A stretch of DNA of 57,469 nt from Acidimicrobiaceae bacterium. Lineage in GTDB: Bacteria; Actinomycetota; Acidimicrobiia; Acidimicrobiales; Aldehydirespiratoraceae. A program made the position numbers and the translations under genes. Positions 15,994 to 54,175 of this stretch are shown here, piece by piece (positions within the stretch are counted from its first letter, which is position 1; each line of letters starts with the position of its first letter). The notes beneath the pieces are model-generated. The model saw only the letters and a list, made by a program, of their open reading frames with translations. It was not told where the DNA came from and did no database searches. Where the stretch lies: contig VYCW01000136.1 of assembly GCA_009843735.1 (NCBI GenBank), forward strand, positions 1 to 57,469. The letters are read 5' to 3'.

Positions 15994-16029
15994 GATCGTC
16001 ACTCATATGCGGGCCGGCGCGGGGTACGG

Positions 16030-16512: not shown

Positions 16513-17207
16513 TCCTCGGCATCGAGTCGGCCACCGGCCGCGTGGGCTGCGCCATCGGAGGCCACGAGGGCGTGCGGGCCTCGGTTCAGACCACCCGCGA
16601 CCGCCACCACGCCGAGTTGCTCGCCCCGCAGATCCAGGCTGCGTGCAGTCACGCCGGCGTGGCCCTGCGGGACCTGGGAGCGGTCGCGGTCGATGTGGGT
16701 CCGGGGCTCTATACCGGTCTGCGGGTGGGTGTGACCACCGCCGTCACCATGGCACACGCCCTGCGGGTGCCCATGGTCGCGGTCAGCAGCCTCGACCTGG
16801 TCGCCTACCCGCTGCGCCACACCGGCCGCACCATCGCGGTGGTGATCGACGCTCGCCGCGGCGAGGTGTTCCATGCCCGCTACGGATGCCTGCCCGGAGG
16901 GGTGCAGCGCCTCGACGGGCCCGAGGTCGGTCGCCCCGAACACGTTGTGTCACAGCTCCTGGCCACCGGCGACGAGACGCTCGTGGTGGGTGACGGCGCG
17001 GAGCGCTACGCGTCGATGTTCGAGGGACTGCGAGGCGTGGAGCTGGCCGATCCCGGCTTCGCCCATCCCTCGGCTGAGTCCCTGGTGCTGCTGGCCCACG
17101 CCCTCGCGCTGCGCGAGGAGTTCGTGCGGCCCGACGAGATCCAGCCTCTGTACCTGCGTCGCCCGGATGCCCAGCCCCAGTCCCACCAGATTGCGAGTTC
17201 GTCATGA
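16494..17207 (+). CDS. tsaB: tRNA threonylcarbamoyladenosine biosynthesis protein TsaB
   Basis: TsaB is the inactive ASKHA-fold partner that dimerises with TsaD. The 237-residue product has [17 protein letters not shown] at the N-terminus and VAVDVGPGLYTGLRVGVTTA, the family signature. The C-terminus (EIQPLYLRRPDAQ) is also typical. GTG 16494 is the longest start; GTG 16506 (VLILGIES) sits nearer to the tsaE stop and is an alternative. The rimI gene that often follows tsaB in actinobacteria is missing; tsaD comes next with a 4-base overlap. Confidence 0.94.
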   Translation: MGRAVLILGIESATGRVGCAIGGHEGVRASVQTTRDRHHAELLAPQIQAACSHAGVALRDLGAVAVDVGPGLYTGLRVGVTTAVTMAHALRVPMVAVSSLDLVAYPLRHTGRTIAVVIDARRGEVFHARYGCLPGGVQRLDGPEVGRPEHVVSQLLATGDETLVVGDGAERYASMFEGLRGVELADPGFAHPSAESLVLLAHALALREEFVRPDEIQPLYLRRPDAQPQSHQIASSS

Positions 17208-18232
17208 CCGAGTCCGGGCCGCTCGTGGCCGACGGCGAGCCGATCCTGGGCATCGAGACCTCCTGCGACGAGACCGCCGCGGCGGTGGTCGCCGGGGGCA
17301 GGCAGGTGCTGTCGTCGGTGGTGTCCAGCCAGATCGATCTGCACGCCCGCTACGGCGGGGTCGTTCCCGAGGTGGCAGGCCGGGCCCATGTCGAGCGCAT
17401 GGTCCCGGTGGTGTCGCAGGCGCTGGTGGAGTCGGCGGTCGACGACTCCGACATCGCCGCAGTGGGGGCCACCGCGGGACCGGGCCTGGTGGGAGCGCTG
17501 CTGGTCGGCGTGTCGGCGGCCAAGGCGCTGGCGCTGGTATGGGATGTGCCGTTCGTCGCCGTCAACCATCTCGAGGCCCACCTCCACGCGGCCTTCCTGG
17601 ACGAGCCGAGCCTGGAGCTGCCCGTGGTCGTGGTGCTGGTCTCGGGAGGCCACACCATGCTCGTGCTGATGGAGGAACGGCTGCGCTACCGGATCCTGGG
17701 CGCCACCGTCGACGACGCTGGCGGGGAGGCGTTCGACAAGGTGGCCCGCTACATGGGCCTCGGATACCCGGGCGGCCCGGCCATCGACCGGCTGAGCGGG
17801 CAGGGCGACCGTGACGCGATCGCCTTTCCCAGAGCGATGCTGCACGACGGCTGGAACTTCTCCTTCAGCGGGCTCAAGACCTCGGTCATCAACTACCTGC
17901 GCCGCCAGCCCGACGCCCCGGCCGCCGATGTCGCCGCGTCGTTCCAGGAGGCGGTGGCCGACGTGCTGGTAGCCAAGGCCCGCCGGGCTGCCGCCGAGCA
18001 TGGGGCGCTGGGTCTGTGCCTGGCCGGCGGGGTGGCCGCCAACAGCCGCCTGCGGGAGATGACGCTCGACGCCTGCACAGCCGACGGGCTGGCCGCCTAC
18101 CTGCCGAGCCGGGCCATGTGCACCGACAACGCGGCCATGGTGGCCGCGGCAGCGTGGTGGCGTCTGAAGGCCGACGGGCCCTCGCCGCTCAACGTGGGCG
18201 CCGATCCGTCCCTGAGCCTGCCGGAGGGCTGA
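17204..18232 (+). CDS. tsaD: tRNA N6-adenosine threonylcarbamoyltransferase TsaD
   Basis: TsaD transfers the threonylcarbamoyl group from its adenylate to A37 of tRNA. The 342-residue protein has GIETSCDETAAAVV, the iron-binding HLEAH (HxxxH), VSGGHTMLV, DDAGGEAFDKVAR, GYPGGPAIDRL and CLAGGVAANSRLR, all family hallmarks. ATG 17204 overlaps the tsaB stop (ATGA). It ends about 46 bases before the groES promoter region; the tsaD-groES order is widely seen in actinobacteria. Confidence 0.97.
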   Translation: MTESGPLVADGEPILGIETSCDETAAAVVAGGRQVLSSVVSSQIDLHARYGGVVPEVAGRAHVERMVPVVSQALVESAVDDSDIAAVGATAGPGLVGALLVGVSAAKALALVWDVPFVAVNHLEAHLHAAFLDEPSLELPVVVVLVSGGHTMLVLMEERLRYRILGATVDDAGGEAFDKVARYMGLGYPGGPAIDRLSGQGDRDAIAFPRAMLHDGWNFSFSGLKTSVINYLRRQPDAPAADVAASFQEAVADVLVAKARRAAAEHGALGLCLAGGVAANSRLREMTLDACTADGLAAYLPSRAMCTDNAAMVAAAAWWRLKADGPSPLNVGADPSLSLPEG

Positions 18233-18249
18233 AACGCCCAGTTCGCGCG

Positions 18250-18278
18250 TTGTGGCCCACCCCGACGCGCCCTATCGT
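18250..18278 (+). promoter_or_regulatory. groESL promoter
   Basis: TTGTGG (18250-18255) and TATCGT (18273-18278) are spaced 17 bases apart, a good housekeeping sigma-factor layout. The predicted transcription start falls inside the CIRCE operator immediately downstream. Confidence 0.6.
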
Positions 18279-18304
18279 TGGCACTCGTCACGGGAGAGTG
18301 CTAA
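18278..18304 (+). promoter_or_regulatory. CIRCE operator (HrcA site)
   Basis: TTGGCACTC, nine bases, then GAGTGCTAA. This matches the CIRCE consensus TTAGCACTC-N9-GAGTGCTAA at 17 of 18 positions. HrcA binding here would repress groESL until heat shock. hrcA is not in the window. Confidence 0.92.
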
Positions 18305-18355
18305 CGCCCGTGTTCAGTCCAAGAAACATCAAGAACACCGAGTCCGGGAGGACAC

Positions 18356-18646
18356 ATGAACCTGCAGCCACTCGAGGATCGCATCGTTGTGCGGCCCGGC
18401 GACGCCGAGGAGACCACGGCCAGTGGTCTCGTCATCCCCGACACCGCCAAAGAGAAGCCCCAGCAGGGCGACGTACTGGCGGTAGGCCCCGGTCGCCGGT
18501 CCGACGACAGCGGCGAACTCATCCCCATGGATGTCGGCGTGGGCGACACCGTCGTCTACTCGAAGTACGGCGGCACCGAGATCACCGTCGACGGTGAGGA
18601 CCTGCTGATCCTCAACGCCCGCGACGTGCTCGCCAAGGTCGTCTGA
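18356..18646 (+). CDS. groES: Co-chaperonin GroES
   Basis: GroES is the heptameric lid of the GroEL folding chamber. The 96-residue protein starts [19 protein letters not shown], has the mobile loop [16 protein letters not shown] and ends [14 protein letters not shown]. All are typical. It lies about 50 bases after a CIRCE operator and 8 bases before groEL, so the pair is one heat-shock operon. Confidence 0.97.
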
Positions 18647-18651
18647 GGTAG

Positions 18652-20301
<1,650 letters not shown>

Positions 20302-36989: not shown

Positions 36990-37979
36990 TCACCCGCGTC
37001 GGCGGCGGGTGCGGCGCCGGGCCAGGCGGTCCTCGGTTGCGGGCGCAGCCGGGGCCGCTGACTCGACGTCGGGCGGGGGTTCGTCACCCCTCAGTACAGC
37101 GGCGATCTTGGCGGTGTGGGCCGGGGTGCTGCCGCAGCAGCTGCCGATGACGCCCACGCCCGCGGCCCGGGCCCGGTGGGCGTGGGCGGCCAGCACCTCG
37201 GGGGTGCCGTCGTATACCAGGCTGTCGCCGCTCCACACCGGAACGCCGGCGTTGGGCTTGGAGATCACCGGGGTTCCCGCTGATGCGGCCGTCGCCGCGA
37301 TCACGGCGGCTTCGGTGTCGGCGATGTTGTTGCCGCAGTTGGCGCCCATCGCGGCCAGGCCCAGCCCGCCGAGCCGTTCGGCCAACTCGGCGCCGGTGAC
37401 GCCCATCATGGTGCGCCCGGCGGTGTCGAAGCTCATGGTCGCGGCGACGGGCAGGTCGCACGCTGATCGGGCTCCCCGCACCGCGGCCTCCACCTCGTCG
37501 AGGTCGCTCATCGTCTCGATCCACAGCAGGTCCGCACCGCCGGCGGCCAGACCCGAGGCCTGCTCGGCGAAGGCGGCCTCGCACGCAGCCGCCGACATGT
37601 TGCCCAACGGCTCCAGCAGCTCACCGGTCGGTCCCATCGAGCCGGCCACCAGCACCAGCCGGCCCGTCCGCACCATCTCGGCGTCGGCCTCGACACGGGC
37701 GACGCCGGCTGCGGCCCAATTCAGGGTGACCACCTGATCCTGGAGGCCGTGCAGGGCCAGGCGGAAACTCGTCCCGCCGAAGCTGTTGGTCACCACCAGG
37801 TCGGCCCCGGCCTGGAGGTAGGCGCGGTGGATGGCCCGAACCTCGTCGGCGTGATGAACGTTCCACGCCTCGGGAGGATCGCCCGCGCTGAGGCCGACGG
37901 CGAAGAGCTGGGTGCCCATAGCCCCGTCGGCCACGACGTATCCCTTGGCATCCAGGAGCGCACCAATGGGGACTGTCAT
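36990..37979 (-). CDS. Homocysteine S-methyltransferase family protein
   Basis: The 329-residue protein is a zinc-dependent homocysteine S-methyltransferase of the MetH-N/BHMT/MmuM type. It has VVADGAMGTQLFAVGL, TNSFGGTSFRL, GSMGPTGELL, and zinc ligands in MGANCGNN and GSCCGSTPAH. The methyl donor (betaine, S-methylmethionine or a methylated corrinoid) cannot be told from the motifs; a glycine-betaine-type transporter 8 kb away makes a betaine donor an attractive guess. ATG 37979 has GGAG 8 bases upstream. The last 20 residues are an Arg-rich tail. Confidence 0.88.
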   Translation of the reverse strand: MTVPIGALLDAKGYVVADGAMGTQLFAVGLSAGDPPEAWNVHHADEVRAIHRAYLQAGADLVVTNSFGGTSFRLALHGLQDQVVTLNWAAAGVARVEADAEMVRTGRLVLVAGSMGPTGELLEPLGNMSAAACEAAFAEQASGLAAGGADLLWIETMSDLDEVEAAVRGARSACDLPVAATMSFDTAGRTMMGVTGAELAERLGGLGLAAMGANCGNNIADTEAAVIAATAASAGTPVISKPNAGVPVWSGDSLVYDGTPEVLAAHAHRARAAGVGVIGSCCGSTPAHTAKIAAVLRGDEPPPDVESAAPAAPATEDRLARRRTRRRRG

Positions 37980-38087
37980 GGACTCAGCTCCAACATGTTG
38001 CAGGTCCCCTCGTCGCGCGGGCCTGTACTCGTTCGCCGCCTGCCACGGTAGCGCCGCCTCCCGTCGGCTCCGGCGCAGCACCACCGG

Positions 38088-38093
38088 TACGCT
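38088..38093 (+). promoter_or_regulatory. -10 box for a leaderless TauD-like transcript
   Basis: TACGCT lies exactly 7 bases before ATG 38101. The upstream methyltransferase start is 121 bases away on the other strand, so each gene has its own promoter. Confidence 0.55.
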
Positions 38094-38100
38094 GACAGCC

Positions 38101-39000
38101 ATGACGCTTGCCCCGCCCAAGCCCTCCGATCCCGCCGCAGGCGTGCAACTCGACATCTCGCCGGTGGCCGGGGCGCTGGGCGCCGAGGTCCGGGGACTCG
38201 ACCCCGACGGCCTCGACGAGCAGGCCGCCGACGCGCTGCGCGAGGCCCTCGACACCCACCTCGTGCTGTTCCTGCCGGGCCTGAACCCCAGCGTGCAGCA
38301 ACTGCGCGACATCGGCGCGCTATTCGGCGAGCTGGAGGTCCACCCCTACATCGACAAGGTCGACGAGAACACTCCCGAGGTGTGCGTGCTCGACACGTCG
38401 GCCACCCCCAAGGCCGACATCTGGCACACCGACGTCACCTACAGCGAGCATCCACCCATCGCCGCGCTTCTCCACATGGTGCAGTGCCCGCCCGCGGGCG
38501 GCGACACCATGTGGATCAACTGCTACGACGTGCACGATTCGCTGTCGGCGCCTCTGCAGGCCTTCCTGGCCGGGCTCACGTGCATCCACGACGACGGCAA
38601 GCAGGGGTCGCTGCGGGCCGAGCACCCGGTGGTGCGCATCCATCCCGGCACCGGCCGGCGCAGTCTGTACGTCAACAAGCAGCACGGGCGGCGCATCCCC
38701 CAGCTGTCCCGGCCCGAGAGCCAGGCACTGCTGGGCTTCCTGTACCGCTGGCAGGAGCAGGTCAAGTTCAGCTGCCGCTGGCGCTGGTCGCCCGGCGATG
38801 TGGCGCTGTGGGACGAGCGCGTCACGCTGCACTCCATCGTGGACGACATCGGTGAAGCGGACAAGACCCGGATCCTGCACCGGGTGACGGTGCTGGGCGA
38901 CGATCCGCAACCGCCCGCGGACGCTGCGGCGTGGGACCGCCACCGCAGCGACAAGACTGCGGCCAGCGGCTACTTCGGCATGGCCGGCTTCGAGTTCTGA
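38101..39000 (+). CDS. TauD/TfdA-family Fe(II)/2-oxoglutarate dioxygenase
   Basis: The 299-residue protein belongs to the TauD/TfdA hydroxylases, which oxidise taurine, other sulfonates, aryloxyacids or related small acids. It has the iron motif WHTD (HxD) around residue 108-111, the distal iron His in RVTLHS, and the 2-oxoglutarate-binding Arg in TRILHRVTVLG. The central CPPAGGDTMWIN stretch is also typical. No taurine transporter is adjacent, so the substrate is open. The next gene is a luciferase-like enzyme in the same direction. Confidence 0.92.
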   Translation: MTLAPPKPSDPAAGVQLDISPVAGALGAEVRGLDPDGLDEQAADALREALDTHLVLFLPGLNPSVQQLRDIGALFGELEVHPYIDKVDENTPEVCVLDTSATPKADIWHTDVTYSEHPPIAALLHMVQCPPAGGDTMWINCYDVHDSLSAPLQAFLAGLTCIHDDGKQGSLRAEHPVVRIHPGTGRRSLYVNKQHGRRIPQLSRPESQALLGFLYRWQEQVKFSCRWRWSPGDVALWDERVTLHSIVDDIGEADKTRILHRVTVLGDDPQPPADAAAWDRHRSDKTAASGYFGMAGFEF

Positions 39001-41898: not shown

Positions 41899-42462
41899 TT
41901 ACTCGATCTGATCGAGCACGCTCTCAGCAACCAGGAACCCAGCGGCGTCAGCCTCCAGCCGGCTGAACACATCCCGGTCGACCTCGATGCCGAGACGATG
42001 GGCGGCCTCGTCGGCCTCGGCGATGCGGGCTCGGCCTGGCGGTGAGACCTCGCCGTCGACTCGGTGCAGTCCCACAGAACTCACCGCTCTGTCGCCTCGG
42101 GTGCGGTGGTCGGGTCCGGTGTTAGCCACACCCCGCATCCGGCCCTGCCAAAGGGTGGCGGCGATCGTGGCCAGTGGCACGGCCGGCTCGAACGTGACTG
42201 AGGCGCTGCCAGCGGCACGGACCGCCGTCTCGGCAGCCAGCAGTGCGTCGGGTGCTGTCACCCACGGCGATACGGGCAGTTCGCCGGAGGCGAGCGATCC
42301 GCAGAAGGCGCCGATCGCCCCGCCGTGGTGAATCTCCCCGAACTCAACGCTCTGGGCGATCTGTTCTGCGGTCCCAGGATCGCACCCGGCGATGCGGCTG
42401 GCCCGATACACGAGATCGCGGACCTCGCGAGGGGCCACGAAAACGGTCTGAGACTTGTCCAT
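41899..42462 (-). CDS. Small conserved protein, possibly DUF3726-like
   Basis: The 187-residue product begins MDKSQTVFVAPREVRDLVYRASRIAG and has no membrane segment or known motif. Its N-terminal pattern (EVRDL..RASR.AG...G.AEQIA) loosely resembles DUF3726 proteins, which I recall beside membrane-dipeptidase homologues; this is a weak, unverified match. The C-terminal half contains GPDHRTRGDRAVSSVG and a Pro/Gly-rich stretch. It lies 18 bases after the dipeptidase-like gene and is the last gene of the three-gene block. Confidence 0.6.
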   Translation of the reverse strand: MDKSQTVFVAPREVRDLVYRASRIAGCDPGTAEQIAQSVEFGEIHHGGAIGAFCGSLASGELPVSPWVTAPDALLAAETAVRAAGSASVTFEPAVPLATIAATLWQGRMRGVANTGPDHRTRGDRAVSSVGLHRVDGEVSPPGRARIAEADEAAHRLGIEVDRDVFSRLEADAAGFLVAESVLDQIE

Positions 42463-42480
42463 CGCCGCTTCGTTGGGCTG

Positions 42481-43431
42481 TCAGCCGAACACGGTCTCGA
42501 ACAGGCGCAGCCAGTTGCCGCCGAGGATCGCATCACGCTCCGTACCTGAGAACCCGGCCTCGTCGAGACCCTCGGCGAGTGAGCCGAAGTCCCTGGGTCC
42601 CCGGAACCACTCAGGCCACGGTGGGAACGCCGGTACCGCGCTGGGGTCAACCGGCCGGTCCCATCGGCCGCTGCGCATCCAGCCGAGGGAATCCTCGCGC
42701 CATCCGAGCACAGCGTCAGTGCCGATCGCGACGTGCTCGGGGCCGATCTGCTCGGCCAGCCGGGCGACCATGGCGCAGTACCGGGCCCTACTGACCCCAG
42801 CCCCACCCATGAACAGCGGATACAGCGTGCACCCGACTACCCCGCCGCGGGCCGCGACAGATTCGAGTACCTCGTCAGGCTTGTTGCGGGGTGAGTCGCA
42901 GAACCACAGCGGGTTGCCGTGGGTGATTGCGGTGGGCTGCGCCGATGCGTGCACCGCTTCGAGGCTGGTCCGGTTGCCGACATGGGAGAGGTCGATGAGC
43001 ACGCTCGCGTCGTTGAGCGCGGCCACCATCCGGTGCCCGGTCCGGGTCAGCCCGCCGTCGACCGGCTCGAAACAGCTCGCTCCCAGGTGGTTGGCGATGT
43101 TGTAGGTGAGCTGCACCACCCGGATTCCGACATCCGCAAAGATCTGGGCCATCTCCGGGTCGTCGCCGAGCATGGTGCTGTTCTGGAACCCGAGGAGCAC
43201 GCCGAGCACACCGTCCGCGGCCGCGTCGCGCATCTGTTCTGCGCTGGTCACGATCCTGACGATGTCGGCGTTATGGCGGCACAGGTGGCGAAAGGCTCCG
43301 ATCCGCGTCATCGCGCCGGCCAGGTCCTCCCATACCCCGACGGTGGCGTGGACGACGTCGACTCCGCCCGATCGCACCTCCTGGATGACAGTGCGGGACC
43401 AGTCGTTGATCTCGAGCCCGTCGATGATCAT
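42481..43431 (-). CDS. Atypical membrane-dipeptidase (peptidase M19) homologue
   Basis: The 316-residue protein has the TIM-barrel M19 fold: GVLLGFQNST, RVVQLTYNIANHLGASCFE, IDLSHVGNRTSLEAV, AITHGNPLWFCDSPRNK and AIGTDAVLGW. Against renal dipeptidase, the His of LSH, the His of ITHGNP and the Asp of GTD are kept. The N-terminal HxD (DGHND) is replaced by DGLEIND, and the bridging Glu (GxEG) by Gln (GFQN). The binuclear zinc site is thus altered. Similar variants occur beside dimethylglycine and betaine catabolic genes in proteobacteria (for example the PA5396 region in Pseudomonas, from memory). ATG 43431 overlaps the previous stop (ATGA). Confidence 0.88.
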   Translation of the reverse strand: MIIDGLEINDWSRTVIQEVRSGGVDVVHATVGVWEDLAGAMTRIGAFRHLCRHNADIVRIVTSAEQMRDAAADGVLGVLLGFQNSTMLGDDPEMAQIFADVGIRVVQLTYNIANHLGASCFEPVDGGLTRTGHRMVAALNDASVLIDLSHVGNRTSLEAVHASAQPTAITHGNPLWFCDSPRNKPDEVLESVAARGGVVGCTLYPLFMGGAGVSRARYCAMVARLAEQIGPEHVAIGTDAVLGWREDSLGWMRSGRWDRPVDPSAVPAFPPWPEWFRGPRDFGSLAEGLDEAGFSGTERDAILGGNWLRLFETVFG

Positions 43432-45146
43432 GAGGCCGTCCCCGGCCGCGGCGGCAGCACCCAGGCATCTTCCTCGTTGTTCCCAAGATCGCTGAAGCGG
43501 GGCGCCCCCTGGAACAGCGTGACCCTCAGCCAGTCGGTGGACTTGGGCTTGAAGTTGTCCATCCCGTACATCGCGAGCTGGAACCTCTGCAGCAGCAGCG
43601 GCAGGTAGTGCACCGAGCAGGCGTTGTCGCGGGGCTCTCCGTAGGCGCGGTCGCTCACTATGAGCCGTTCGGCCGCGATGCGATGCTCCGGATGCTCCCT
43701 CAGCACGCGGTGAACGGGTGAGCTGTCCGGGTAGGCCGCGAGCGCGGAGCGCATCCTCCATAGGCGTAGAGCGATGTCGATGGCCACGTCCCGGTTCGCG
43801 GGGTTGAGCCGGGAGCGCAGCGCCCGCCGCGGCTCCTCGTTGTTGTCGCTGATGACCCACCACCACGCGTCACCGGACGGGTCGTCGAGATCGAGTTGCG
43901 CCAGCCAGTCGAACCGGGCGTCGAGCAGCGCTCGCATCTCCCCAACAGTCAAGGCGGGATCGAGCGAGGCGTGCTCGTCGACGGTCAGCAGGTCGTCGAT
44001 CAGATCGTCGTCGGCTTCGTGGAGCTCCAGCAGCAGCGACACCACCAACTCGGTGGTCTCGGGGTTGTGACCCTCGGACCAGCGGTACAGGGCGTCGAAC
44101 GGCCGTGACTCGTGGCGGCAGCGCTCGAACGCGTCCCGGACTCGTGCCACCACCGAGGCCACCTCCACGGAGTTGAGGAACGGGCGACAATCGTCTTCGG
44201 TTCCGCGGAGGAAGTGCGAGTACGCCCTCTCGATCCACGCCTCGAGCCGGGCCAACCGCTCGCCCGTGCCCGTCAGCGACCGAACATCGGCCAGCGCCAG
44301 CTCCCGGATGGCGACCCAGGCGTGGATGACCCTCGGATGCTTGAATGCGAACGGCACCAATCCCAGCCCGGTGGCATTCCCCAGCCCGAAGTAGCGGCGC
44401 CAGCACGGGTCGAAGGTGACCGAGGCGGATCCGCCCCTGAACCGCGCGCACCGCTCCACCAAGTCGTAGCCGAGCTCCCGGAACATCCAGGCGCACACGA
44501 ACTGCGCCCTGTAGGGCACCCGGAGAGGATGGCCGTCGGGATACCCCTCGAAGGAGCGCATGCCGTACTTGCCGTTGGCGTAGAAGGCGGTGCTGCGCAG
44601 GATGTAGCCCGCGTCGGCCACCAGGCGAGGATCGGGCTGCTCGCCGCGGGCGAGGGCACCGACCAGGTAGTCGAAGAACCGGACGCTCCGGTTGCCTCGG
44701 GTGAGCACCAGCACCCGGGGATCAAGCCGCCCGGCCTCCTGGAGAGGGACCTCACGCCGGAGCATTGCGAGGAGGTCGCCGGTCGCCTCACCATCGACGA
44801 GCGCGGCTGCAATCTCCCACCGTTCGGCGATGACCCGGTCGGTGTGCTCAGCCTCGTCGATGGTGGTGGTGAAGGCCACGAAGCTGAAGCAGCAGTCGCC
44901 GGTGCGGAGTTCGTAGACGGCCTCGCCGTGGCCGTAGCCGTCTACGTCGAAGCGGGCTCGGCGGGCGCGCCACCCGTCCCGTGAGGCCCTGCGCAGCATG
45001 GTGCGACTGAAGCTGTAGCGGGTCAGCCGGGCCGCGCCCATCATCGCCGGTTGCATCACCACCTCTGGGGGGCGCAAACGGGACTGCCGCCGGTCGAGCT
45101 CGGTCTGGAGCCCGTCCCGAGACGTGACGGTCGCGCTCACTGACAC
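43428..45146 (-). CDS. Large conserved protein of unknown function (572 residues)
   Basis: No known domain is recognised. The protein is mainly alpha-helical by composition, soluble and without signal peptide. Recognisable blocks are SFSRTMLRRASRDGWRARR, the turn CCFSFVAFTTTIDEAEHTDRVIAERWE, LVDGEATGDLLAMLRREVPLQEAGR, VLTRGNRSVRFFDYLVGAL and ADAGYILRSTAFYANGKYG, then a C-terminal part with VISDNNEEPRR and SVHYLPLLLQRFQ. I recall homologues in proteobacteria encoded beside similar dipeptidase-like genes, without a function. GTG 45146 has GGAGG 9 bases upstream. The stop overlaps the dipeptidase-like gene, which implies a joint role. A strong hairpin separates it from proX. Confidence 0.8.
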   Translation of the reverse strand: MSVSATVTSRDGLQTELDRRQSRLRPPEVVMQPAMMGAARLTRYSFSRTMLRRASRDGWRARRARFDVDGYGHGEAVYELRTGDCCFSFVAFTTTIDEAEHTDRVIAERWEIAAALVDGEATGDLLAMLRREVPLQEAGRLDPRVLVLTRGNRSVRFFDYLVGALARGEQPDPRLVADAGYILRSTAFYANGKYGMRSFEGYPDGHPLRVPYRAQFVCAWMFRELGYDLVERCARFRGGSASVTFDPCWRRYFGLGNATGLGLVPFAFKHPRVIHAWVAIRELALADVRSLTGTGERLARLEAWIERAYSHFLRGTEDDCRPFLNSVEVASVVARVRDAFERCRHESRPFDALYRWSEGHNPETTELVVSLLLELHEADDDLIDDLLTVDEHASLDPALTVGEMRALLDARFDWLAQLDLDDPSGDAWWWVISDNNEEPRRALRSRLNPANRDVAIDIALRLWRMRSALAAYPDSSPVHRVLREHPEHRIAAERLIVSDRAYGEPRDNACSVHYLPLLLQRFQLAMYGMDNFKPKSTDWLRVTLFQGAPRFSDLGNNEEDAWVLPPRPGTAS

Positions 45147-45164
45147 CTGTCTGCGCCTCCAAGT

Positions 45165-45199
45165 GCTGATCGGGCGGGGAGGTGCCCCGCCCGATCAGC
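45165..45199 (-). terminator. Strong hairpin between proX and the unknown-protein block
   Basis: A perfect 15-bp stem (45165-45179 with 45185-45199, arms GCTGATCGGGCGGGG and its complement) with a 5-base loop lies 21 bases downstream of the proX stop on -. No T tract follows. It may end or attenuate the transporter transcript, or protect the 3' end of its mRNA. Confidence 0.75.
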
Positions 45200-45220
45200 C
45201 TAGGAACGTGTGCGTTCGAG

Positions 45221-46387
45221 TCAGCCAGCAGCCAGCGCGGCCTCGATCCACGGATCGATGATGTCGCGGTTGCCGGCGATCCAATCGGCGGCCGCCGCGG
45301 CGATCTCCTCGTTGGAGTTTGCGCCGGCGTCGATGGCGACAGCCTGAACGGCCACCGCCAGCGGGTCCAACTCGAAGTTCTCGAGCAGGCTCGCGGCCGC
45401 CGGGTTGGCGGCGAGGAACTCGTTGTTGGCCGTCACGACGATGTCCGAGGGAGTGAACATCGTCGTGCACGGGTCGTTGGTGCAGGCGTCGCCCACGTTG
45501 GACACGCCGTCCTGGCCCTCGAGGGCGTGCGCCGGCTCGATGGCGAGCCATAGCACGTCCCGACCGGGGACCAGCTTGCCGACGAAGGCGGTGGGCGTCC
45601 ACACGTACTGTAGGACGGGCCCGCCTTCCCGGAAGCTCGCCTCCGACTCCGCGAACAGCGCCGAGTGGGTGGCCGAGACCTGCGCGACGCGATCGTCCCA
45701 GCCGTTCTGGGAGATCGTGTCGTTGATCACCTTCTGGCAGCCCCAGCCGTCGTCGCAGCCGTTGATGTCGGCCTTGCCGTCGCCGTCGGAGTCGAAGTGC
45801 GCGATCGCGTCGGCGTTGTCCAGCAACTCCTCGAGCGTCTGGAAGCCGAACTGCTCCACGCTCGCAATGTCGACGAGGAGTCCCTGAAGCGCTCCCGAGG
45901 CCATCATCGTGCCGATGTACCGGGCCTTGTCGCCGAACGTTCCTCCGTCGGGGCTCTCGCCCTCCAGGAGAGGCGTGTGGTTGAGCGGCCACGACGAGGC
46001 CCAGAGGTCGTAGTCGCCCTGCGCGACGGCCGGGTAGAAGGTCGCAGGCGTGATCTCCTCAGGATCGGTGACTTCGTAGCCGAGCTCCTGGAGGAGTTGC
46101 TGGACCACGTAGTTCTGGAAGTTGGTCTCGATCCAGTTGCCTCTGGCCATGGTGACGGTCACGCCCTCGCCGGGCAGGGCGGCTTCGGGTTCTGCCGGCT
46201 CAGGCGAGGCGTCGGGTTCTGCCGCTTCGGGTTCTGCCGGCTCAGGCGCGGCTTCGGGCTCGGCGGCTTCGGGTTCTGCCGGCTCGGGTGCGGCTTCCGT
46301 TGTCGAACTGTCGTCGCCGCAGGCGGCTGCGAACAGCCCGAACGTGACAAGGAGCGCGATGAGCGCTCTCCATCGGCCGGTGTGCAT
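45221..46387 (-). CDS. proX: Glycine betaine-type ABC transporter substrate-binding lipoprotein
   Basis: The 388-residue protein is the periplasmic-type binding component of a quaternary-amine (OpuA/ProU class) importer. Its signal peptide ends in AAAC, giving a lipid-anchored Cys. About 45 residues of Glu-Pro-Ala repeats follow as a flexible tether. The binding domain has MARGNWIETNFQNYVVQQLL, YDLWASSWPLNHTPLL and DGWGCQKVIND; the Trp residues would form the aromatic cage for a trimethylammonium group. ATG 46387 has GGGAGGGG 5 bases upstream. It follows the permease gene by 191 bases. Confidence 0.9.
   Translation of the reverse strand: MHTGRWRALIALLVTFGLFAAACGDDSSTTEAAPEPAEPEAAEPEAAPEPAEPEAAEPDASPEPAEPEAALPGEGVTVTMARGNWIETNFQNYVVQQLLQELGYEVTDPEEITPATFYPAVAQGDYDLWASSWPLNHTPLLEGESPDGGTFGDKARYIGTMMASGALQGLLVDIASVEQFGFQTLEELLDNADAIAHFDSDGDGKADINGCDDGWGCQKVINDTISQNGWDDRVAQVSATHSALFAESEASFREGGPVLQYVWTPTAFVGKLVPGRDVLWLAIEPAHALEGQDGVSNVGDACTNDPCTTMFTPSDIVVTANNEFLAANPAAASLLENFELDPLAVAVQAVAIDAGANSNEEIAAAAADWIAGNRDIIDPWIEAALAAG
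46182..46298 (-). repeat. Glu-Pro-Ala coding repeats in the proX linker
   Basis: Short imperfect tandem units encode EPAEPEAA-like octapeptides between the lipobox and the binding domain. This is low-complexity coding sequence and may vary in copy number between strains. Confidence 0.8.
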
Positions 46388-46485
46388 GTTGGGTTCCCCT
46401 CCCGGTTGCCTCGGGGCATGGGCCCCGACGGTTGGTTTGTAGAAACACGCGTTGTGCTTCGTAGGCCACCCTCTCGCGGATGTCT

Positions 46486-46526
46486 CGTCCGAAACGTCCG
46501 AAAAAGCGAGGTCGCTATCGAGTCTA
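46486..46526 (-). promoter_or_regulatory. Possible proX internal promoter and tandem 9-mer
   Basis: On - a TAGACT box (46526-46521) is followed by two head-to-tail copies of TTTCGGACG (46503-46486), about 100 bases before the proX ATG. The -35 is weak. The tandem 9-mers could be a regulator site. The rest of the 191-base gap to the permease gene shows nothing else. Confidence 0.35.
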
Positions 46527-46578
46527 GTTTCGAGCCAGGCTCCACTGCCAGGGGTGATGCCGATTGCAGGCGCGAAAG

Positions 46579-48549
46579 CTAGGCGGCCTGGCTGGCCCGC
46601 CAGCCCCGAGCGGCGAGTATCAGTCCACCCACGACTGCGAGGAAGGAGCTGGCGCCGGGCGAAAGCGCCGGGGTCGCCAACCGGACGAAAGTGGCAATCC
46701 ATGCCAGTCCCACCGCAGTGATCGCGCATCCCAGCCCGAACACGGCGACGCCCAGCAAGCGTTGGGACGCGGCGTTACGCACCAGTCGTGCCAGCGCCGC
46801 CACGGTGCTGACCACCGTGAGTGCCAGGACCATGTAGCCGATCCGGGGCCCTTCTGCGTCGAGGCCGCGGGTGGTCACACGCCGTGTCTGCGCCATGGCC
46901 TCGGCCAGGACTTCGGCTGCGAGGCCGCCCTGGTCGGCGCCCTCAGCCTCCGCGGCTAGTTCGGCAGCGATCTGGGCTGCGTCGCTCCGCTGGTCAAGGA
47001 TCCACGATCCTGACGCTCCGGCCAGTCCCAGGAACAGCGCCAGCACGATAATGCCGAGGACTTCCCGCACCCCCACTCGGGCTGTCTCGTAGTCGCCCTT
47101 GGACCGGAGGGCGGCGGCCGCGCCACCGCCGAGAACAATGAGGGCACCGAGCAGAGCCAGCCACGGGCCCGGGCCGTGGCTGTAGTTGTCCCCGCGCGGC
47201 GCGACGGTCAAATAGGCGCCGGCCAGCGCGGTCAGGACCAGGCCCGAGGCGAGGAACGCGGTCGCCCCGGCGACGAACTTGTCACGGCTGCGCGGGCGAA
47301 ACAGCGCTGAGGCGCCGCCGAAGAGGGCGGCCAGGGCAACCAGGCCGAACACGATCCCGAACCATGAGCCGCCGGTCGCGTCCAGCCCGCTGTGGGGGCC
47401 GGGGAGGTCGTTGTCATCGAATCTGGCGTAGCCCGAGAGCAGGCCGGCGTCGTTTCCCCACACCAGCAGCACGGACACTCCGCCCACCAGACCCCCCACA
47501 GCCGCGGCCACCGCCCCGATGCGGTGCGATGCGGTCAGCGCAGGCGCCGCCGGCGCGGCTGCCGGCCTGGGCATGTCCGTCTCGGCGACCGTGCCGGGAA
47601 CCGCCGGCACGACCGGATCGATCCGCGTGGCCCACGCTTGGCGGATGCGGGCGAAGAGACTGCGTCGATCGACATCGTCCTCGGGCTGAGAGATCCGGTC
47701 GAGAAGCACTCCCACGAAGTACAGGCCGGCACCGGCTGACGCTCCGATAGGGATGTCGGCGGTGTTGAGAGCAGTGAGGATGGGCTTGCCGAGACCGCCA
47801 CCGGCGATGATCGCCACGATCCCGACCATCGACAGCGACAGCAGCAGGGTCTGGTTGAGCCCCGCCATGATGGCCGGACGGGCCAGCGGCAACTGCACCT
47901 CCCGCAGCACCCGGGGCTCTGTAGCTCCGAAGGCTCGGGCCGCCTCCACCACATCGGGCGGAACCTGGCGTACGCCCAGGTTGGTGAGGCGGACGATGGG
48001 GGGAAGGGCGAACACCAGGGTGGCCAGCACTCCGGGAGTCCGGCGGACGCCGAACAGGAAGATGATGGGGAGCAGGTAGACGAAGGGGTGAATCACCTGC
48101 ATGCCGTCGAGGATCGGGCGCAGCCGGCTCCAGAACACATCCACGCGCGCAGCCAGGATCCCGAGCGGGATACCGATCGCCGTGCAGATGATCACCGCCA
48201 CGATGATCATCCCGAGCGTCTCCATGGTCAGGTTCCAGTACTCGTCGCCGAGCAGCCCGCATACCAAGAGGCCGCCAGCACTGAACAGCCCTACCAGGAT
48301 GTTCCGGGTGACCACCCCGAGCAGGAAGAACAGCAGCAGGACGACGGGCCAGGGCAGCCACGTCTGGAGCAGGTTGTCGATGATCAGTTCCAGCAGCTTG
48401 TCGACCGGCCACTTGACGGCGTCAAGCAGACCCTTGATGTGGGTGGTCAGCCAGAAGACGATCTCCTCGATCCAGAGGCCGAAGGGAATCTCCCAGGCGT
48501 CGAGGTTGTCGTTGTCCCAGAATGGGGTGGCGAGCATGCCAGCACTCAT
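46579..48549 (-). CDS. proW: Glycine betaine-type ABC permease with a fused membrane domain
   Basis: The 656-residue protein is about twice the length of normal ProW. Residues 1-300 are the permease: several membrane helices, then DVFWSRLRPILDGMQVIHPFVYLLP and the coupling-helix region VRQVPPDVVEAARAFGATEPRVLREVQLPLARPAIMAGLNQ. An acidic/Pro-Ala-rich linker follows, then a second half (about 340-656) with six or seven further hydrophobic segments, including GAVAAAVGGLVGGVSVLLVW, GIVFGLVALAALFGG and GYMVLALTVVSTVAALARLV, and a helical soluble loop (SDAAQIAAELAAEAEGADQ). The second half is unlike any transporter part I know. Start ATG 48549 overlaps the proV stop. Confidence 0.9.
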   Translation of the reverse strand: MSAGMLATPFWDNDNLDAWEIPFGLWIEEIVFWLTTHIKGLLDAVKWPVDKLLELIIDNLLQTWLPWPVVLLLFFLLGVVTRNILVGLFSAGGLLVCGLLGDEYWNLTMETLGMIIVAVIICTAIGIPLGILAARVDVFWSRLRPILDGMQVIHPFVYLLPIIFLFGVRRTPGVLATLVFALPPIVRLTNLGVRQVPPDVVEAARAFGATEPRVLREVQLPLARPAIMAGLNQTLLLSLSMVGIVAIIAGGGLGKPILTALNTADIPIGASAGAGLYFVGVLLDRISQPEDDVDRRSLFARIRQAWATRIDPVVPAVPGTVAETDMPRPAAAPAAPALTASHRIGAVAAAVGGLVGGVSVLLVWGNDAGLLSGYARFDDNDLPGPHSGLDATGGSWFGIVFGLVALAALFGGASALFRPRSRDKFVAGATAFLASGLVLTALAGAYLTVAPRGDNYSHGPGPWLALLGALIVLGGGAAAALRSKGDYETARVGVREVLGIIVLALFLGLAGASGSWILDQRSDAAQIAAELAAEAEGADQGGLAAEVLAEAMAQTRRVTTRGLDAEGPRIGYMVLALTVVSTVAALARLVRNAASQRLLGVAVFGLGCAITAVGLAWIATFVRLATPALSPGASSFLAVVGGLILAARGWRASQAA

Positions 48550-49772
48550 GTCTGGGAATCCTGTGCCTTGGCGAGCTCGAGCTGCTCCGAGATGCTCTCG
48601 ACCCTCCCCAACTCAGCGAGCACTTCGAGAGGCTGCACAGAGCCGATGAGCCGACCCTCGCCGTCGACCACCGCCACGGGCAGCCCGGATTCGAACAACT
48701 GGTAGACCTTGGCCAGCATGGTGTCGCTGGTAACGGCCGGCGTGGCCTCGATGAGGCCCTTCACGTCGCTGGTGCCGCTGGCTCGCGCCCGTTCGACGGA
48801 CTCGCGGGTCACCACGCCGAGCGGACGCCCGTCGTTGTCGACGACATGGGCCGCATCGGTCTCACCGCTGTCGATGGCCTGGAGCACATCGGCCGGAGTC
48901 GCGTTCGCCGCCACCATGACGGCATCCTCACGCACCGTTTCGACCGCCAAGACCCGGCCCTGGTCGACATCCTGGACAAACTCGGCCACGTAGTCGGTCT
49001 CCGGCCGCATCAGGATGTCCTCGGGCGTACCGATCTGATGGATGGCGCCGTCCTTCATGATGCACACCCGAGAACCGACGCGGAGGGCCTCGTTGAGGTC
49101 GTGCGTAATGAACAGGATCGTCTTGCGGAGCTCGCTCTGGATCTCCATCAACTCGTCCTGCATCTGGCGCCGGATGAGCGGATCGAGAGCGCTGAAGGCC
49201 TCGTCCATCAACAGGATGTCGGGGTCGGTGGCGAGAGCGCGGGCCAGCCCCACCCTCTGCTGCATGCCTCCGCTGAGCTGTCTCGGGAAACTGCTCTCGT
49301 AGCCTCCGAGCCCCACCAGTGCGAGCGCCCTCTCGGCGGCCGCCATCCTGCTCGCACGGTCCATGCCCTTGACCTTCAGGCCGAAGGCCACGTTCGAGCG
49401 GATGTCCTGGTGAGGGAACAGCGCGAAGTGCTGGAACACCATGCCGGTGCTCTCGCGGCGAAAGACTTGGAGTTTCTTCGGGTCCAGTGCGGTGACGTCG
49501 GTGTCGTCGACGACGATTCTTCCGGCCGTTGGCTCGTACAGCCGATTCACACACCGGATGAGGGTGGACTTGCCTGAGCCCGAGAGGCCCATCACGACGA
49601 AGATCTCCCCTTCTTCGATGTCGATATTGGCGTTGTCCACTCCCACGACATGACCGGTGATCTCTCGGATCACATCCTTCGAGTGGCCGGCTCGCAGCAG
49701 TTCGAGGGCCTCGCCTTCCGGCTCGTCACCGAAGATCTTGATGACACTCTCGATCTTGATCTTCGTTGGCAT
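48546..49772 (-). CDS. proV: Glycine betaine-type ABC transporter ATP-binding protein
   Basis: The 408-residue ATPase drives the ProU/OpuA importer. It has the family-specific leader (VIKIFGDEPEGEALELLRAGHSK), Walker A GLSGSGKST, the Q-loop FQHFALFPH, the signature LSGGMQQRVGLARAL, Walker B ILLMDEAFSALDPLIR and the H-loop FITHDL. A tandem CBS pair fills the C-terminus (about 275-400); in OpuA such pairs sense ionic strength. Start ATG 49772 begins the transporter operon; a TAGGGT box on - (49833-49828) may be its -10. Confidence 0.95.
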   Translation of the reverse strand: MPTKIKIESVIKIFGDEPEGEALELLRAGHSKDVIREITGHVVGVDNANIDIEEGEIFVVMGLSGSGKSTLIRCVNRLYEPTAGRIVVDDTDVTALDPKKLQVFRRESTGMVFQHFALFPHQDIRSNVAFGLKVKGMDRASRMAAAERALALVGLGGYESSFPRQLSGGMQQRVGLARALATDPDILLMDEAFSALDPLIRRQMQDELMEIQSELRKTILFITHDLNEALRVGSRVCIMKDGAIHQIGTPEDILMRPETDYVAEFVQDVDQGRVLAVETVREDAVMVAANATPADVLQAIDSGETDAAHVVDNDGRPLGVVTRESVERARASGTSDVKGLIEATPAVTSDTMLAKVYQLFESGLPVAVVDGEGRLIGSVQPLEVLAELGRVESISEQLELAKAQDSQT

Positions 49773-49882: not shown

Positions 49883-50590
49883 TCAGGCTGACGCTGCGTT
49901 CACGAGCCAGTCGAAGACGGGGTCGGAGTCGCGGGAGGCCATCAACTCGGGGTGCCACTGCACGCCGATCCATGGCCGGCGGCGGGACTCGATCACCTCG
50001 ACGGCGCCGTCGTCGCTGTGGCCCGTCACCTCGAAGCCGTCGGCGAGTTCGTCGATCGTCTGGTGGTGCAGCGAGTTGACCTCGACCGAAGGCCCGTACA
50101 GCGAGGCGGCCAACGAGCCCGCGGCCAGATCGACACGGTGGACGAGCAAGTTGGGGCCCCGGTCGTGACAGGCATGGGGGGCGACGTGCTGGTGGAGCGT
50201 GCCTCCGCCGTGCACGTTCAGCACCTGGATCCCCCGGCAGATGCCGAGCACTGGCTTCCCGGTGGCCACCGCACCGTCGAGCAGGGCCATCTCGAAGGCG
50301 TCGCGATCCGGTTCGCGGGCATAGAGCTCAGGGCACGGCTGCTGGCCGTAGCGCTCCGGTTCGATGTCGGTTCCGCCGCTCAGCAGCAGACCGTCGAGGC
50401 GGTCCGCGTAGTGGGCCGGGTCGGCGCTGCCGGGCAGAAAGACCGGCAAGCCACCCGCTGCGATTACCGCTCGGGCGTAGTCGCAGTAGTACACGTCCAA
50501 GTCCAGGTCCCGGAAGGACTCGGGCTTCATGTTGAGTTCGCCCGCGGTCTTGGTCCGACCCGTGATGCCGATCAATGGTGCTCTCGCCAC
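49883..50590 (-). CDS. Class I glutamine amidotransferase-like hydrolase (peptidase C26, PuuD-like)
   Basis: The 235-residue protein belongs to the gamma-glutamyl-gamma-aminobutyrate hydrolase group. It has the nucleophile Cys in GICRGIQVLNVHGGGTLHQHV, the catalytic His/Glu in QWHPEL, and LLLSGGTDIEPERYG near the start. Such enzymes release glutamate from gamma-glutamylated amines. GTG 50590 lies 7 bases after a TACACT box, so the message is probably leaderless. A glutamine-synthetase homologue 2.2 kb away could supply the glutamylated substrate. Confidence 0.88.
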   Translation of the reverse strand: MARAPLIGITGRTKTAGELNMKPESFRDLDLDVYYCDYARAVIAAGGLPVFLPGSADPAHYADRLDGLLLSGGTDIEPERYGQQPCPELYAREPDRDAFEMALLDGAVATGKPVLGICRGIQVLNVHGGGTLHQHVAPHACHDRGPNLLVHRVDLAAGSLAASLYGPSVEVNSLHHQTIDELADGFEVTGHSDDGAVEVIESRRRPWIGVQWHPELMASRDSDPVFDWLVNAASA

Positions 50591-50597
50591 GGCCAAG

Positions 50598-50607
50598 AGT
50601 GTAGGTT
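50598..50607. promoter_or_regulatory. Overlapping divergent -10 boxes (amidotransferase / hydrolase)
   Basis: On -, TACACT (50603-50598) is 7 bases before the amidotransferase GTG at 50590. On +, TAGGTT (50602-50607) is 6 bases before the hydrolase GTG at 50614. They share two base pairs, giving the symmetrical AGTGTAGGTT. The 23-base gap leaves no room for leaders. Confidence 0.6.
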
Positions 50608-50613
50608 CCGACC

Positions 50614-51462
50614 GTGCCCGCACCGTCGGTCCCCACGAGAACGGCAGGCGCCATGGATGTGGATGGGTCGCTGGCCTGGCGAGAGTGCGGCCGGGGCGAG
50701 CCGGTGGTGTTCCTGCACGGGCTGGGCGGGTCCCGGACCTCGTGGGAGCCCCAGCTCGCCGGCCTGAGCGCCGGTTTCCGCTGCGTCGCCTGGGACATGC
50801 CCGGCTACGGCGTCTCGGCCCCCGTGGAGCCACTGACCTTCGCTTCCATCGCCGACTCGGTGGCCCGGCTGCTCGACGCGGCCGGGGTGGAGCGGGCCCA
50901 TCTCGTAGGCGAATCCTTCGGCGGGATGCATGCCCTGCATACCGCGCTGCGCCATCCGGAACGGGTCGCCCGCCTCGTGCTGGCCAACACCAGCCCCGCG
51001 TTCGGCATCGACGGCACCGACCCCGACGCATGGCGGGCCGCCCGCCTCGCTCCTCTGGACGCAGGACTCACCCCCGCCGACATCGCGGAAGACGTCCTGA
51101 CCTCCGTCGCGGGCCCCGCTCTCGGCGACGGTGCCCTCGCCATGCGGGTAGCGGGCTTCGCTCGCATCCCGGCAGCCGGGCTGCGAGCGGCCATCGAGTG
51201 CCTGCCCGCCCATGACGTGCGCGAGCGGCTGGGCGCGGTTGCCTCACCCGCGCTGGTGGTGGCTGGGGAACTCGACGCTGAGACGCCGGTCGGCTACTCC
51301 CGCATCCTCGCCGATGGACTGCAGAACGCCGAGCTGATCGTGCTGGAGGGTGTCGGACACCTGGCGGTCTCGGAGGTTCCGCAGACCTTCAACCGCCTGG
51401 TACGAGACTTCCTCAACCGCGGTCGAGGGTTGGGACCCTCGGGCCCCAGGTGGGCGATATAG
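50614..51462 (+). CDS. Alpha/beta-fold hydrolase
   Basis: The 282-residue enzyme has the oxyanion HGLGGSRTSW, the nucleophile elbow GESFGGMHAL with Ser, the acid region VAGELDAETPV and the His in GVGHLAVSE. It resembles 3-oxoadipate enol-lactonase/BphD-like hydrolases, but the substrate is not evident. GTG 50614 is supported by a -10 box 6 bases upstream. The first ~15 residues are Pro/Thr-rich, and an in-frame ATG at 50653 is an alternative start. It is divergent from the amidotransferase gene. Confidence 0.88.
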   Translation: MPAPSVPTRTAGAMDVDGSLAWRECGRGEPVVFLHGLGGSRTSWEPQLAGLSAGFRCVAWDMPGYGVSAPVEPLTFASIADSVARLLDAAGVERAHLVGESFGGMHALHTALRHPERVARLVLANTSPAFGIDGTDPDAWRAARLAPLDAGLTPADIAEDVLTSVAGPALGDGALAMRVAGFARIPAAGLRAAIECLPAHDVRERLGAVASPALVVAGELDAETPVGYSRILADGLQNAELIVLEGVGHLAVSEVPQTFNRLVRDFLNRGRGLGPSGPRWAI

Positions 51463-52787: not shown

Positions 52788-52816
52788 TTTAAATGCCCGC
52801 GACCAGGGGAGCTGCC

Positions 52817-54175
52817 ATGACCGACTGGGACCGCGTCCGCGCCCTGTGGCCCGACCACCTCGGGCTGGCCCGGGGCAAGTACCTGCCGGCCCGGCTGGCC
52901 CACAAGGGCACCAGCCACTGCGTGACTGTGTTCGGGCTCGGCTATGACCGCAGCATGGCGCCCGCACCGGGCGCCTACCTCCTCGACGGCCTGCCCGACA
53001 CCCAGATCAGCTTCGACACCGCCGACATCCGCCAGGGCTGGGACGACGACGCCACCGGGGTCGTCATCGGTGACCTGTCGATGCACGGCGAGGCCTTGCC
53101 GGAGTCGTCCCGCGGGGCGCTGCGCCGGGCGGTGACCGACTGGGAGACCCTGGGCTATACCCCCAAGGTCGGCATCGAGCTCGAGGCCTACGTGTTCAGC
53201 GGGGGACTGGAGGACCCCCGGCCCTACGAGACGCCCCGCTCCATGGTCTACGGGACCGGGGTCGGGTCCGACCCCGCTGGGGTCGTCACCAAGCTGGTGC
53301 GCCGGGCGGAGGCGTCCGGCATCGCCATGGAGTCGGTCAACGCCGAGTACGACGAGGGCCAGTTCGAGCTCACCCTCGAGTACGGCGACGCCATGTGGGC
53401 CGCCGACAACGCCTTCCTGTTCCGGCTGCTGGCCCGCGAGACCGTGCTGACCGCCACCGACGCCGCGGGCCAGCCTCTGGGCCTTGACTTGACCTTCCTG
53501 GGCAAGCCGTTCCCGGGCATCTCCGGCACCGGCGTCCACGTGAACTTCTCGCTGGTCGACGCGCAGGGCGACAACGCCATGTCGGACACCGGGGGCGCCC
53601 ACGGCATGTCCGACTTGGCCCGGGGCTGCATGGCGGGACTGATCGACCACCACCTGGGCATGACCGCACTGGCCGCACCGACCGTCAACGCCTACCGGCG
53701 CCTTCGCCCCGGCGAACTCAACGGGTACTGGGCCAACTGGGGCGTCGAGCACCGCTGCGCCGGCAACCGCGTGCCCCGGGGCGCCGGCCCCCACATGCGC
53801 ATCGAGAGCCGCATCGGCGACGGCGCCGCCAACGTCCACACCCTGATCGCCGCCGTGCTGCAGGCGGCCCGTCTCGGCATGGTCGGCGGGCTGGACTGCC
53901 CCGAGCCGATGACAACCGACGGCTTCGACGATGTCAACACCGATGTCCACTGTGCCCACAGCCTCAGCGAGGCCCTTGACGAGATGGAGGCCGACGAGGC
54001 CCTCTGCGAGGCGGTCGGCAAGGAGCTCTGCGACAACTTCGTGTTCAACAAGCGGGCCGAGTGGGACCGCTACATCGCCGGGGCCGGCGACGAGGCCGTC
54101 GATGACTGGGACGCCATCGGTGGCACCGAACCCCTCCTGGAATGGGAGTTGAAGCAGTACCTGCCCTACCACTGA
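52817..54175 (+). CDS. Glutamine synthetase family protein (gamma-glutamyl-amine ligase-like)
   Basis: The 452-residue protein has the glutamine-synthetase catalytic core: KVGIELEAYVF (metal Glu), EYDEGQFELTLEYGDAMWAADNAFLFR, GTGVHVNFSLVD (KPxxGxGxHxH-like region with KPFPGISG), NAYRRLRPGE and a C-terminal RIESRIGDGAANVHTLIAA. It lacks the canonical beta-Grasp start and the adenylylation Tyr region of GlnA, and it is nearer to PuuA/GlnA3/GlnA4-like enzymes that glutamylate amines. ATG 52817 has AGGGGAG 5 bases upstream. Position near a PuuD-like hydrolase supports the amine role. Confidence 0.88.
   Translation: MTDWDRVRALWPDHLGLARGKYLPARLAHKGTSHCVTVFGLGYDRSMAPAPGAYLLDGLPDTQISFDTADIRQGWDDDATGVVIGDLSMHGEALPESSRGALRRAVTDWETLGYTPKVGIELEAYVFSGGLEDPRPYETPRSMVYGTGVGSDPAGVVTKLVRRAEASGIAMESVNAEYDEGQFELTLEYGDAMWAADNAFLFRLLARETVLTATDAAGQPLGLDLTFLGKPFPGISGTGVHVNFSLVDAQGDNAMSDTGGAHGMSDLARGCMAGLIDHHLGMTALAAPTVNAYRRLRPGELNGYWANWGVEHRCAGNRVPRGAGPHMRIESRIGDGAANVHTLIAAVLQAARLGMVGGLDCPEPMTTDGFDDVNTDVHCAHSLSEALDEMEADEALCEAVGKELCDNFVFNKRAEWDRYIAGAGDEAVDDWDAIGGTEPLLEWELKQYLPYH

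Follow-up and report, generated by a model that had tools for sequence, protein, structure and literature searches.

Homarine (N-methylpicolinate) is drawn down fast by Ruegeria pomeroyi, according to the available part of PMC12817926, and a passage of PMC13390433, citing Ferrer-Gonzalez et al. 2026, indicates that N-methylglutamate dehydrogenase takes part in its catabolism. In the dgc operon, a pepD gene and a hypothetical gene precede dgcAB in the gene order given in an excerpt of PMC12093977, and N-methyl amino acids have been made with DpkA (PMC8070496, PMC6775277), which a listed title terms an imine reductase. Here we analyse a stretch of 57,469 nucleotides from an Acidimicrobiaceae bacterium (contig VYCW01000136.1 of assembly GCA_009843735.1), referred to as the window, in which six minus-strand genes encode a ProXWV-type importer and three further proteins: a 572-residue orphan, an M19 dipeptidase-like protein and a 187-residue protein related to DUF3726. 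Comparison of gene neighbourhoods shows that the genes of this trio are inherited together as a unit and are associated with betaine importers and with imine-handling enzymes. We see an even chance that the six genes serve the uptake and breakdown of an N-methylated betaine by way of an N-methyl imine, homarine being the most likely substrate.

The core of the trio is the 572-residue protein (43428..45146, minus strand, GTG start), whose relatives were found by profile search. An alignment of 19 members, run against a named genome collection, returned at least 590 stretches, of which at least 563 were confirmed and the best 80 kept; a plasmid collection gave 168 records of the family. Unless stated otherwise, counts refer to 111 loci (103 plus eight annotated plasmid regions), from which the profiles themselves were built, after six duplicates (L030, L035, L037, L039, L040 and L041) had been dropped; alignment A2 was made without L098, L107, L113 and L122, which have stops or a frame break, and without L061. 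Of 100 related genomes 23 have a member, among them the genome of the window, and in the Jannaschia family the figure is 114 out of 248 genomes sampled; the family's closest named relatives, among the matches listed, are Acidimicrobiia assemblies. A haloarchaeal (Natrinema) plasmid (L129) also carries a member, beside aldehyde dehydrogenase (ALDH) and BCCT genes.

On the same strand and within 4.5 kb of the 572-residue gene, a DUF3726-like gene is present at 108 of the 111 loci and an M19-like gene at 100, upstream in 54 cases and downstream in 46. The three loci lacking the former (L034, L050 and L078) are close to contig ends; among the eleven lacking the latter (L045, L046, L047, L063, L064, L066, L078, L099, L109, L129 and L132), L046, L047 and L132 have an M19-like gene on the opposite strand. 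Forty further loci of the Jannaschia family, four of them chosen for a nearby gene of sarcosine oxidase or N-methylglutamate dehydrogenase (Sox/Mgd) type, showed DUF3726 in 40/40 and M19 in 38/40. In Mesorhizobium (L133) the 572 and DUF3726 parts are naturally fused in one coding sequence. Of 12 annotated plasmid loci, ten have an overlap of exactly 4 bases between the two genes, one has an overlap of 1 base and one a gap. The three genes that the original prediction had called linked recur together, and betaine-type transporters and, at some loci, N-methyl-amine genes stand beside the trio. That prediction would have been refuted by a lack of such recurrence, or by trios standing consistently apart from betaine-class transporters and N-methyl amine genes; the comparison showed neither.

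No Pfam or NCBIfam family and no PDB match of note was found for the 572-residue protein, and its profile gave no probability above 0.2 against those of the cassette neighbours. The M19-like protein (42481..43431, minus strand, 316 residues) matches PF01244 at 215.7 bits (cut-off 26) and has 2i5g as its nearest PDB structure (E 2.7e-49), which we take to be PA5396, a dgc-operon protein. Reading the site at what we assume to be the M19 metal ligands (HxD, bridging Glu, His, His, Asp), we find the HxD gone and the bridging Glu replaced by Gln, with two His and one Asp retained, in agreement with the altered site claimed earlier. Among 84 aligned cassette M19 sequences, 77 have Leu at the first ligand position and 79 have Gln at the bridging position, the remainder being mostly gaps, and D4, E35, Q83-N84, H150, H171, D239 and a WxRxGRW stretch are conserved. 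A classical dipeptidase was rejected as a candidate, given the altered site across these 84 sequences. Ordinary peptide uptake followed by dipeptidase activity, to which the Pfam match would point, is hardly credible in view of those Leu and Gln counts and of recurrent transporters that are of betaine types. Literature searches on PA5396/PA5397 and on DUF3726 returned nothing, and one on homarine genes gave a single paper.

The 187-residue protein (41899..42462, minus strand) has no Pfam or NCBIfam match and does not reach the cut-off of PF12525 (DUF3726). It is assigned to this family as a divergent member, on the grounds that its gene occupies the position held by DUF3726 at other loci and that its group (14 sequences) aligns in hhalign with a Vibrio-type DUF3726 group over 172 columns (probability 93.6, E 2e-7). 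DUF3726 in turn looks like a shortened relative of the Ldh_2 reductases: pairwise hhalign with their N-terminal part gave a probability of 91.3 (E 9.5e-7, 132 columns), against 0.1-0.2 for seven other cassette profiles, and a mixed DUF3726 alignment gave 79.8. The window's own subgroup alone scored 1.8, so that this kinship holds for the window through the family only.

The importer has the parts of a ProU/OpuA system. The ProV-like ATPase (48546..49772, minus strand; PF00005 with two PF00571 CBS domains) exceeds the TIGR01186 cut-off (378.9 versus 326.6 bits), and the binding lipoprotein ProX (45221..46387, minus strand) that of NF008334 (252.3 versus 215). The ProW-like permease (46579..48549, minus strand) carries PF00528 at residues 126-282 of 656 and matches ChoW/ProW models below their NCBIfam cut-offs (TIGR03416, 242.5 versus 363 bits). 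ProX aligns with Escherichia coli ProX 1r9l (E 1.4e-45), with Trp on Trp at three places, which we take to be the betaine cage. Unlike ProU/OpuA, the window's permease is fused to a long extra C-terminal part, and its importer is joined to the trio.

Elsewhere, a BCCT gene is near 38 of the 111 trio loci, a glycine-betaine-type permease near 16, and ProX lies within 4.5 kb of the trio in 12. A label for glycine-betaine ABC importers, 'GB-ABC', scored at 29 of the 111 loci, was rejected as inflated, its ATPase seed also catching other ABC ATPases, including those of PotD-type loci. A chance adjacency of importer and trio could be argued from the hairpin between proX and the 572-residue gene, described below, and from the many trios that adjoin other transporters; it is nevertheless very unlikely, considering the 12 trios close to ProX and the others that carry BCCT or glycine-betaine ABC genes. 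All ten listed loci of the ProX cluster belong to Acidimicrobiia assemblies, to relatives of the window or to the window itself.

The enzymes that recur beside the trio point to the chemistry that it may feed. An ALDH gene is found at 52 of the 111 loci, on the same strand and no more than 4.5 kb away, and in all four cassette ALDHs scanned the best NCBIfam model is alpha-ketoglutarate-semialdehyde (KGSA)/2,5-dioxovalerate dehydrogenase. RidA and an Ldh_2 reductase (Ldh2) exclude each other: of 82 loci with 5 kb of sequence on each side, 36 have RidA only, 19 Ldh2 only, none both and 27 neither (Fisher 2e-6), and 40 Jannaschia-family loci gave 5, 21, 0 and 14 (p 0.018), both statistics counting related sequences many times. 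This exclusion would make sense if both enzymes acted on one N-methyl imine, the first by hydrolysis and the second by reduction. The nearest solved structure to cassette Ldh2 is delta1-piperideine-2-carboxylate reductase (E 5.3e-59), the type of enzyme that we take DpkA to be; DUF3726 would be its remote relative.

We propose that ProXWV takes up the betaine and that the trio would convert it to a C5 oxo-acid (semialdehyde) in the form of an open-chain N-methyl enamine or imine. The M19-like protein may act by hydrolysis, either on an N-acyl (N-formyl) bond or on a C-N bond of the ring. A KGSA-type ALDH would oxidise the aldehyde. RidA could then hydrolyse the imine, giving 2-oxoglutarate and methylamine, or the DpkA-like Ldh2 could reduce it to N-methylglutamate, which N-methylglutamate dehydrogenase would convert to glutamate. 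With homarine as the substrate, ring opening and loss of C6 would leave the C5 skeleton of 2-oxoglutarate with the N-methyl imine at C2. The importer, the Trp-aligned ProX, the imine step, the KGSA-like step and the link to N-methyl amino acids together suggest a betaine with a carboxyl-bearing ring carbon on the methylated N; homarine matches this description.

The same imine logic could apply to a different ring, for example that of proline or hydroxyproline betaine, a reading that we regard as rather unlikely. Hydroxyproline catabolism also ends in a KGSA-type ALDH. Rieske genes (near 7 of the 111 loci), FAD/GcvT-type genes (9, some partial), MttB (5) and betaine-homocysteine methyltransferase (BHMT)-like genes (6) add to it. 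Apart from the FAD/GcvT type, these genes would fit betaines that carry several methyl groups, and to that extent also speak against homarine. Yet no demethylase is constant, the recurrent set being the trio, ALDH and either RidA or an imine reductase, and the report that links N-methylglutamate dehydrogenase with homarine, as cited in a passage of PMC13390433, favours homarine.

The association of the trio with Ldh2 extends to whole genomes. In the sample of 100 related genomes, cassette-type Ldh2 (E 1e-40 or better, 57-100% identity) is present outside the window's genus in 18/18 cassette genomes and in 0/66 non-cassette genomes, two of the latter having distant paralogues (33-36%). In 7 of the 18 the Ldh2 gene is on a different contig from the cassette, one such cassette contig being only 7.5 kb, so that the co-occurrence is more than mere neighbourhood. 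An alpha subunit of Sox/Mgd type, the two taken together, is found in 21/23 cassette genomes versus 21/77 others and, within the family, in 18/20 versus 18/31 (p 0.026). In the Jannaschia family, a Phaeobacter-type alpha class (at least 60% identity) accompanies the cassette in 46/114 genomes versus 27/134 others (p 7e-4), within 10 kb in four of them. Alpha subunits that match beyond the shared GcvT part lie within about 10 kb of the cassette at 3 of the 111 loci (L136, L065 and L095) and at 5 of the 40 Jannaschia-family loci. Six of these eight have Ldh2 beside the cassette, L065 has it elsewhere in the genome and one is on a short contig; RidA was seen at none of the eight. In Phaeobacter inhibens 2.10 such an alpha gene adjoins the cassette. 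The cassette of Phaeobacter inhibens P10 (L137) adjoins a dimethylsulfoniopropionate (DMSP) demethylase gene set, and at L219 (~15960-19900) genes near the cassette resemble the beta-hydroxyaspartate cycle set.

Ferrer-Gonzalez and co-workers reportedly described in 2026 (Nat Microbiol, doi 10.1038/s41564-026-02313-7) a homarine operon, homABCDER, of a regulator and five genes, with N-methylglutamate and glutamate as intermediates and a link to mgdABCD. A frequent cassette of the Jannaschia family consists of LysR, ALDH, M19, 572, DUF3726 and Ldh2 genes, with Sox/Mgd-type genes beside some copies, and five genes plus a regulator would equal this set. The published operon and the LysR/ALDH/M19/572/DUF3726/Ldh2 cassette are probably the same, which makes it doubtful that the system is undescribed; that word of the original prediction is probably wrong, the homarine study probably covering the operon. 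The window differs in that its trio is joined to the ProXWV importer, with no ALDH, Ldh2 or LysR gene beside it. Ldh_2 with the trio, taken here as a feature of the hom operon, is present in all 18 cassette genomes from other genera and, at E 1e-40, in none of the five from the window's genus.

A second described system bears on the M19-like protein. In Pseudomonas (L154) and Halomonas (L149), another M19 protein near an NADH:flavin oxidoreductase shares the missing HxD, the Glu-to-Gln change and the retained His, His and Asp; together with the gene order in the excerpt of PMC12093977, these copies agree with the earlier remark that this variant occurs beside dimethylglycine-type genes. They also lend some weight, as do the pepD and hypothetical genes before dgcAB in that excerpt and the glycine-betaine likeness of ProX, to the idea that the trio assists in the breakdown of glycine betaine or dimethylglycine, as the dgc-operon M19 gene would do. 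We consider this improbable. A profile of the cassette members scores cassette M19 at 489-559 bits and the two dgc-type proteins at 321-327, both types occur within one Pseudomonas and one Halomonas genome, their neighbours differ, and the dimethylglycine route has no place for a KGSA-type ALDH and an imine reductase. Neither 572 nor DUF3726 was found near the two dgc-type copies within the 1.5 kb examined. Searches of the literature on trigonelline and such gene clusters gave nothing relevant beyond PMC12093977.

Several observations weigh against homarine catabolism by the window's genes. ALDH, RidA and Ldh2 are all absent from beside its trio, and the best Ldh_2 protein in the source genome is 32% identical to cassette Ldh2; within the genus, no Ldh2 was found at E 1e-40 in five cassette genomes (four 85-87% complete, one 95%). 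The window would be a reductase-less actinobacterial variant, a trimmed form of a widespread pathway, in which the imine, with no imine reductase in the genus, is presumably hydrolysed. Among genomes of the genus, Sox/Mgd-type alpha shows no association with the cassette (4/5 versus 9/11), these counts do not separate sarcosine oxidase from N-methylglutamate dehydrogenase, and the other alpha class in the Jannaschia family is equally associated (at least 48/114 versus at least 28/134, p 3e-4), although it lies within 10 kb of no cassette among the matches listed. All counts ignore phylogeny. The ALDH scores (443-564 bits) are below the model cut-offs of 750-770, and the PDB ranks betaine-aldehyde, succinate-semialdehyde and other dehydrogenases above the KGSA enzyme 5x5t; with such generic matches the KGSA assignment is soft. 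No recognisable ring-opening enzyme is present, the 572-residue protein having no fold assignment from Pfam, NCBIfam or PDB. At least 37 of the 111 loci, short contigs included, show none of the transporter types sought. The earlier expectation that betaine transporters accompany the trio holds as recurrence (BCCT, ProX and the glycine-betaine permease) and not at these loci. The prediction of an N-methylated or betainised substrate in place of a peptide is supported in part, by the recurrent trio, the transporters and the M19 variant.

There is also a second trio subfamily, about 30% identical, on Sinorhizobium, Alloyangia and Aminobacter replicons (L138, L140 and L141), in which IclR, 572, DUF3726-like and M19 genes stand with a PotD-type ABC transporter and with RidA plus succinate-semialdehyde dehydrogenase (SSADH)/gabT or acetolactate-synthase-like genes. 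Such neighbours also count against a single substrate; more than one may be processed by the trio. Some Jannaschia-family loci form a third group that has 572 and DUF3726, mostly with M19, and no ALDH, RidA or Ldh2 in view. We put forward tentatively that 572, an M19 protein with half a metal site and an Ldh_2-derived DUF3726 constitute a new multi-subunit enzyme that would open N-methylated (pyridinium-type) betaines to N-methyl imines, with at least two substrate lines, one through KGSA-type ALDH to 2-oxoglutarate and one through SSADH/gabT-type enzymes to succinate, the window's genus being without imine reductase.

At the locus itself, all six reading frames of the original prediction are present on the minus strand in the order given there. 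The listed M19 frame (461 residues) is too long; with the start at 43431, the 4-base overlap with the 572-residue gene is exact. The proV and proW genes also overlap by 4 bases, and 18 bases separate the M19-like gene from that of the 187-residue protein. The listed proX frame (45221-46729) probably starts truly at the lipoprotein ATG at 46387. Between proX and the 572-residue gene is a perfect 15-bp hairpin (45165..45199, minus strand) with no U-tract, within an 86-nucleotide stretch that folds at -46.7 kcal/mol (z -5.5); it is not among the terminators returned by a terminator scan. With this hairpin in between, a single even transcript is not assured. The source assembly has 140 contigs and is 85% complete.

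Other genes lie close by. A BHMT-like gene (36990-38312, minus strand) scores 337.6 bits against the NF005718 cut-off of 338, and its homologue is 1.5-2 kb from the 572-residue gene in L050-L054. A C26 gamma-glutamyl hydrolase-like gene (49883-51031, minus strand) and a type III glutamine-synthetase-like gene (52793-54175, plus strand) are near the cassette and could handle gamma-glutamyl-methylamide, but no other cassette was seen with the synthetase-like gene beside it. The window's GmaS-like gene was rejected as a cassette member, being near 1 of the 111 loci, the window alone.

Taken together, these comparisons give a large family without a match in the domain libraries a context, partners and a reaction that can be tested. 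They likewise open to test how actinobacteria turn over betaines, whether DUF3726 arose from a reductase and what the altered M19 proteins do in betaine operons.

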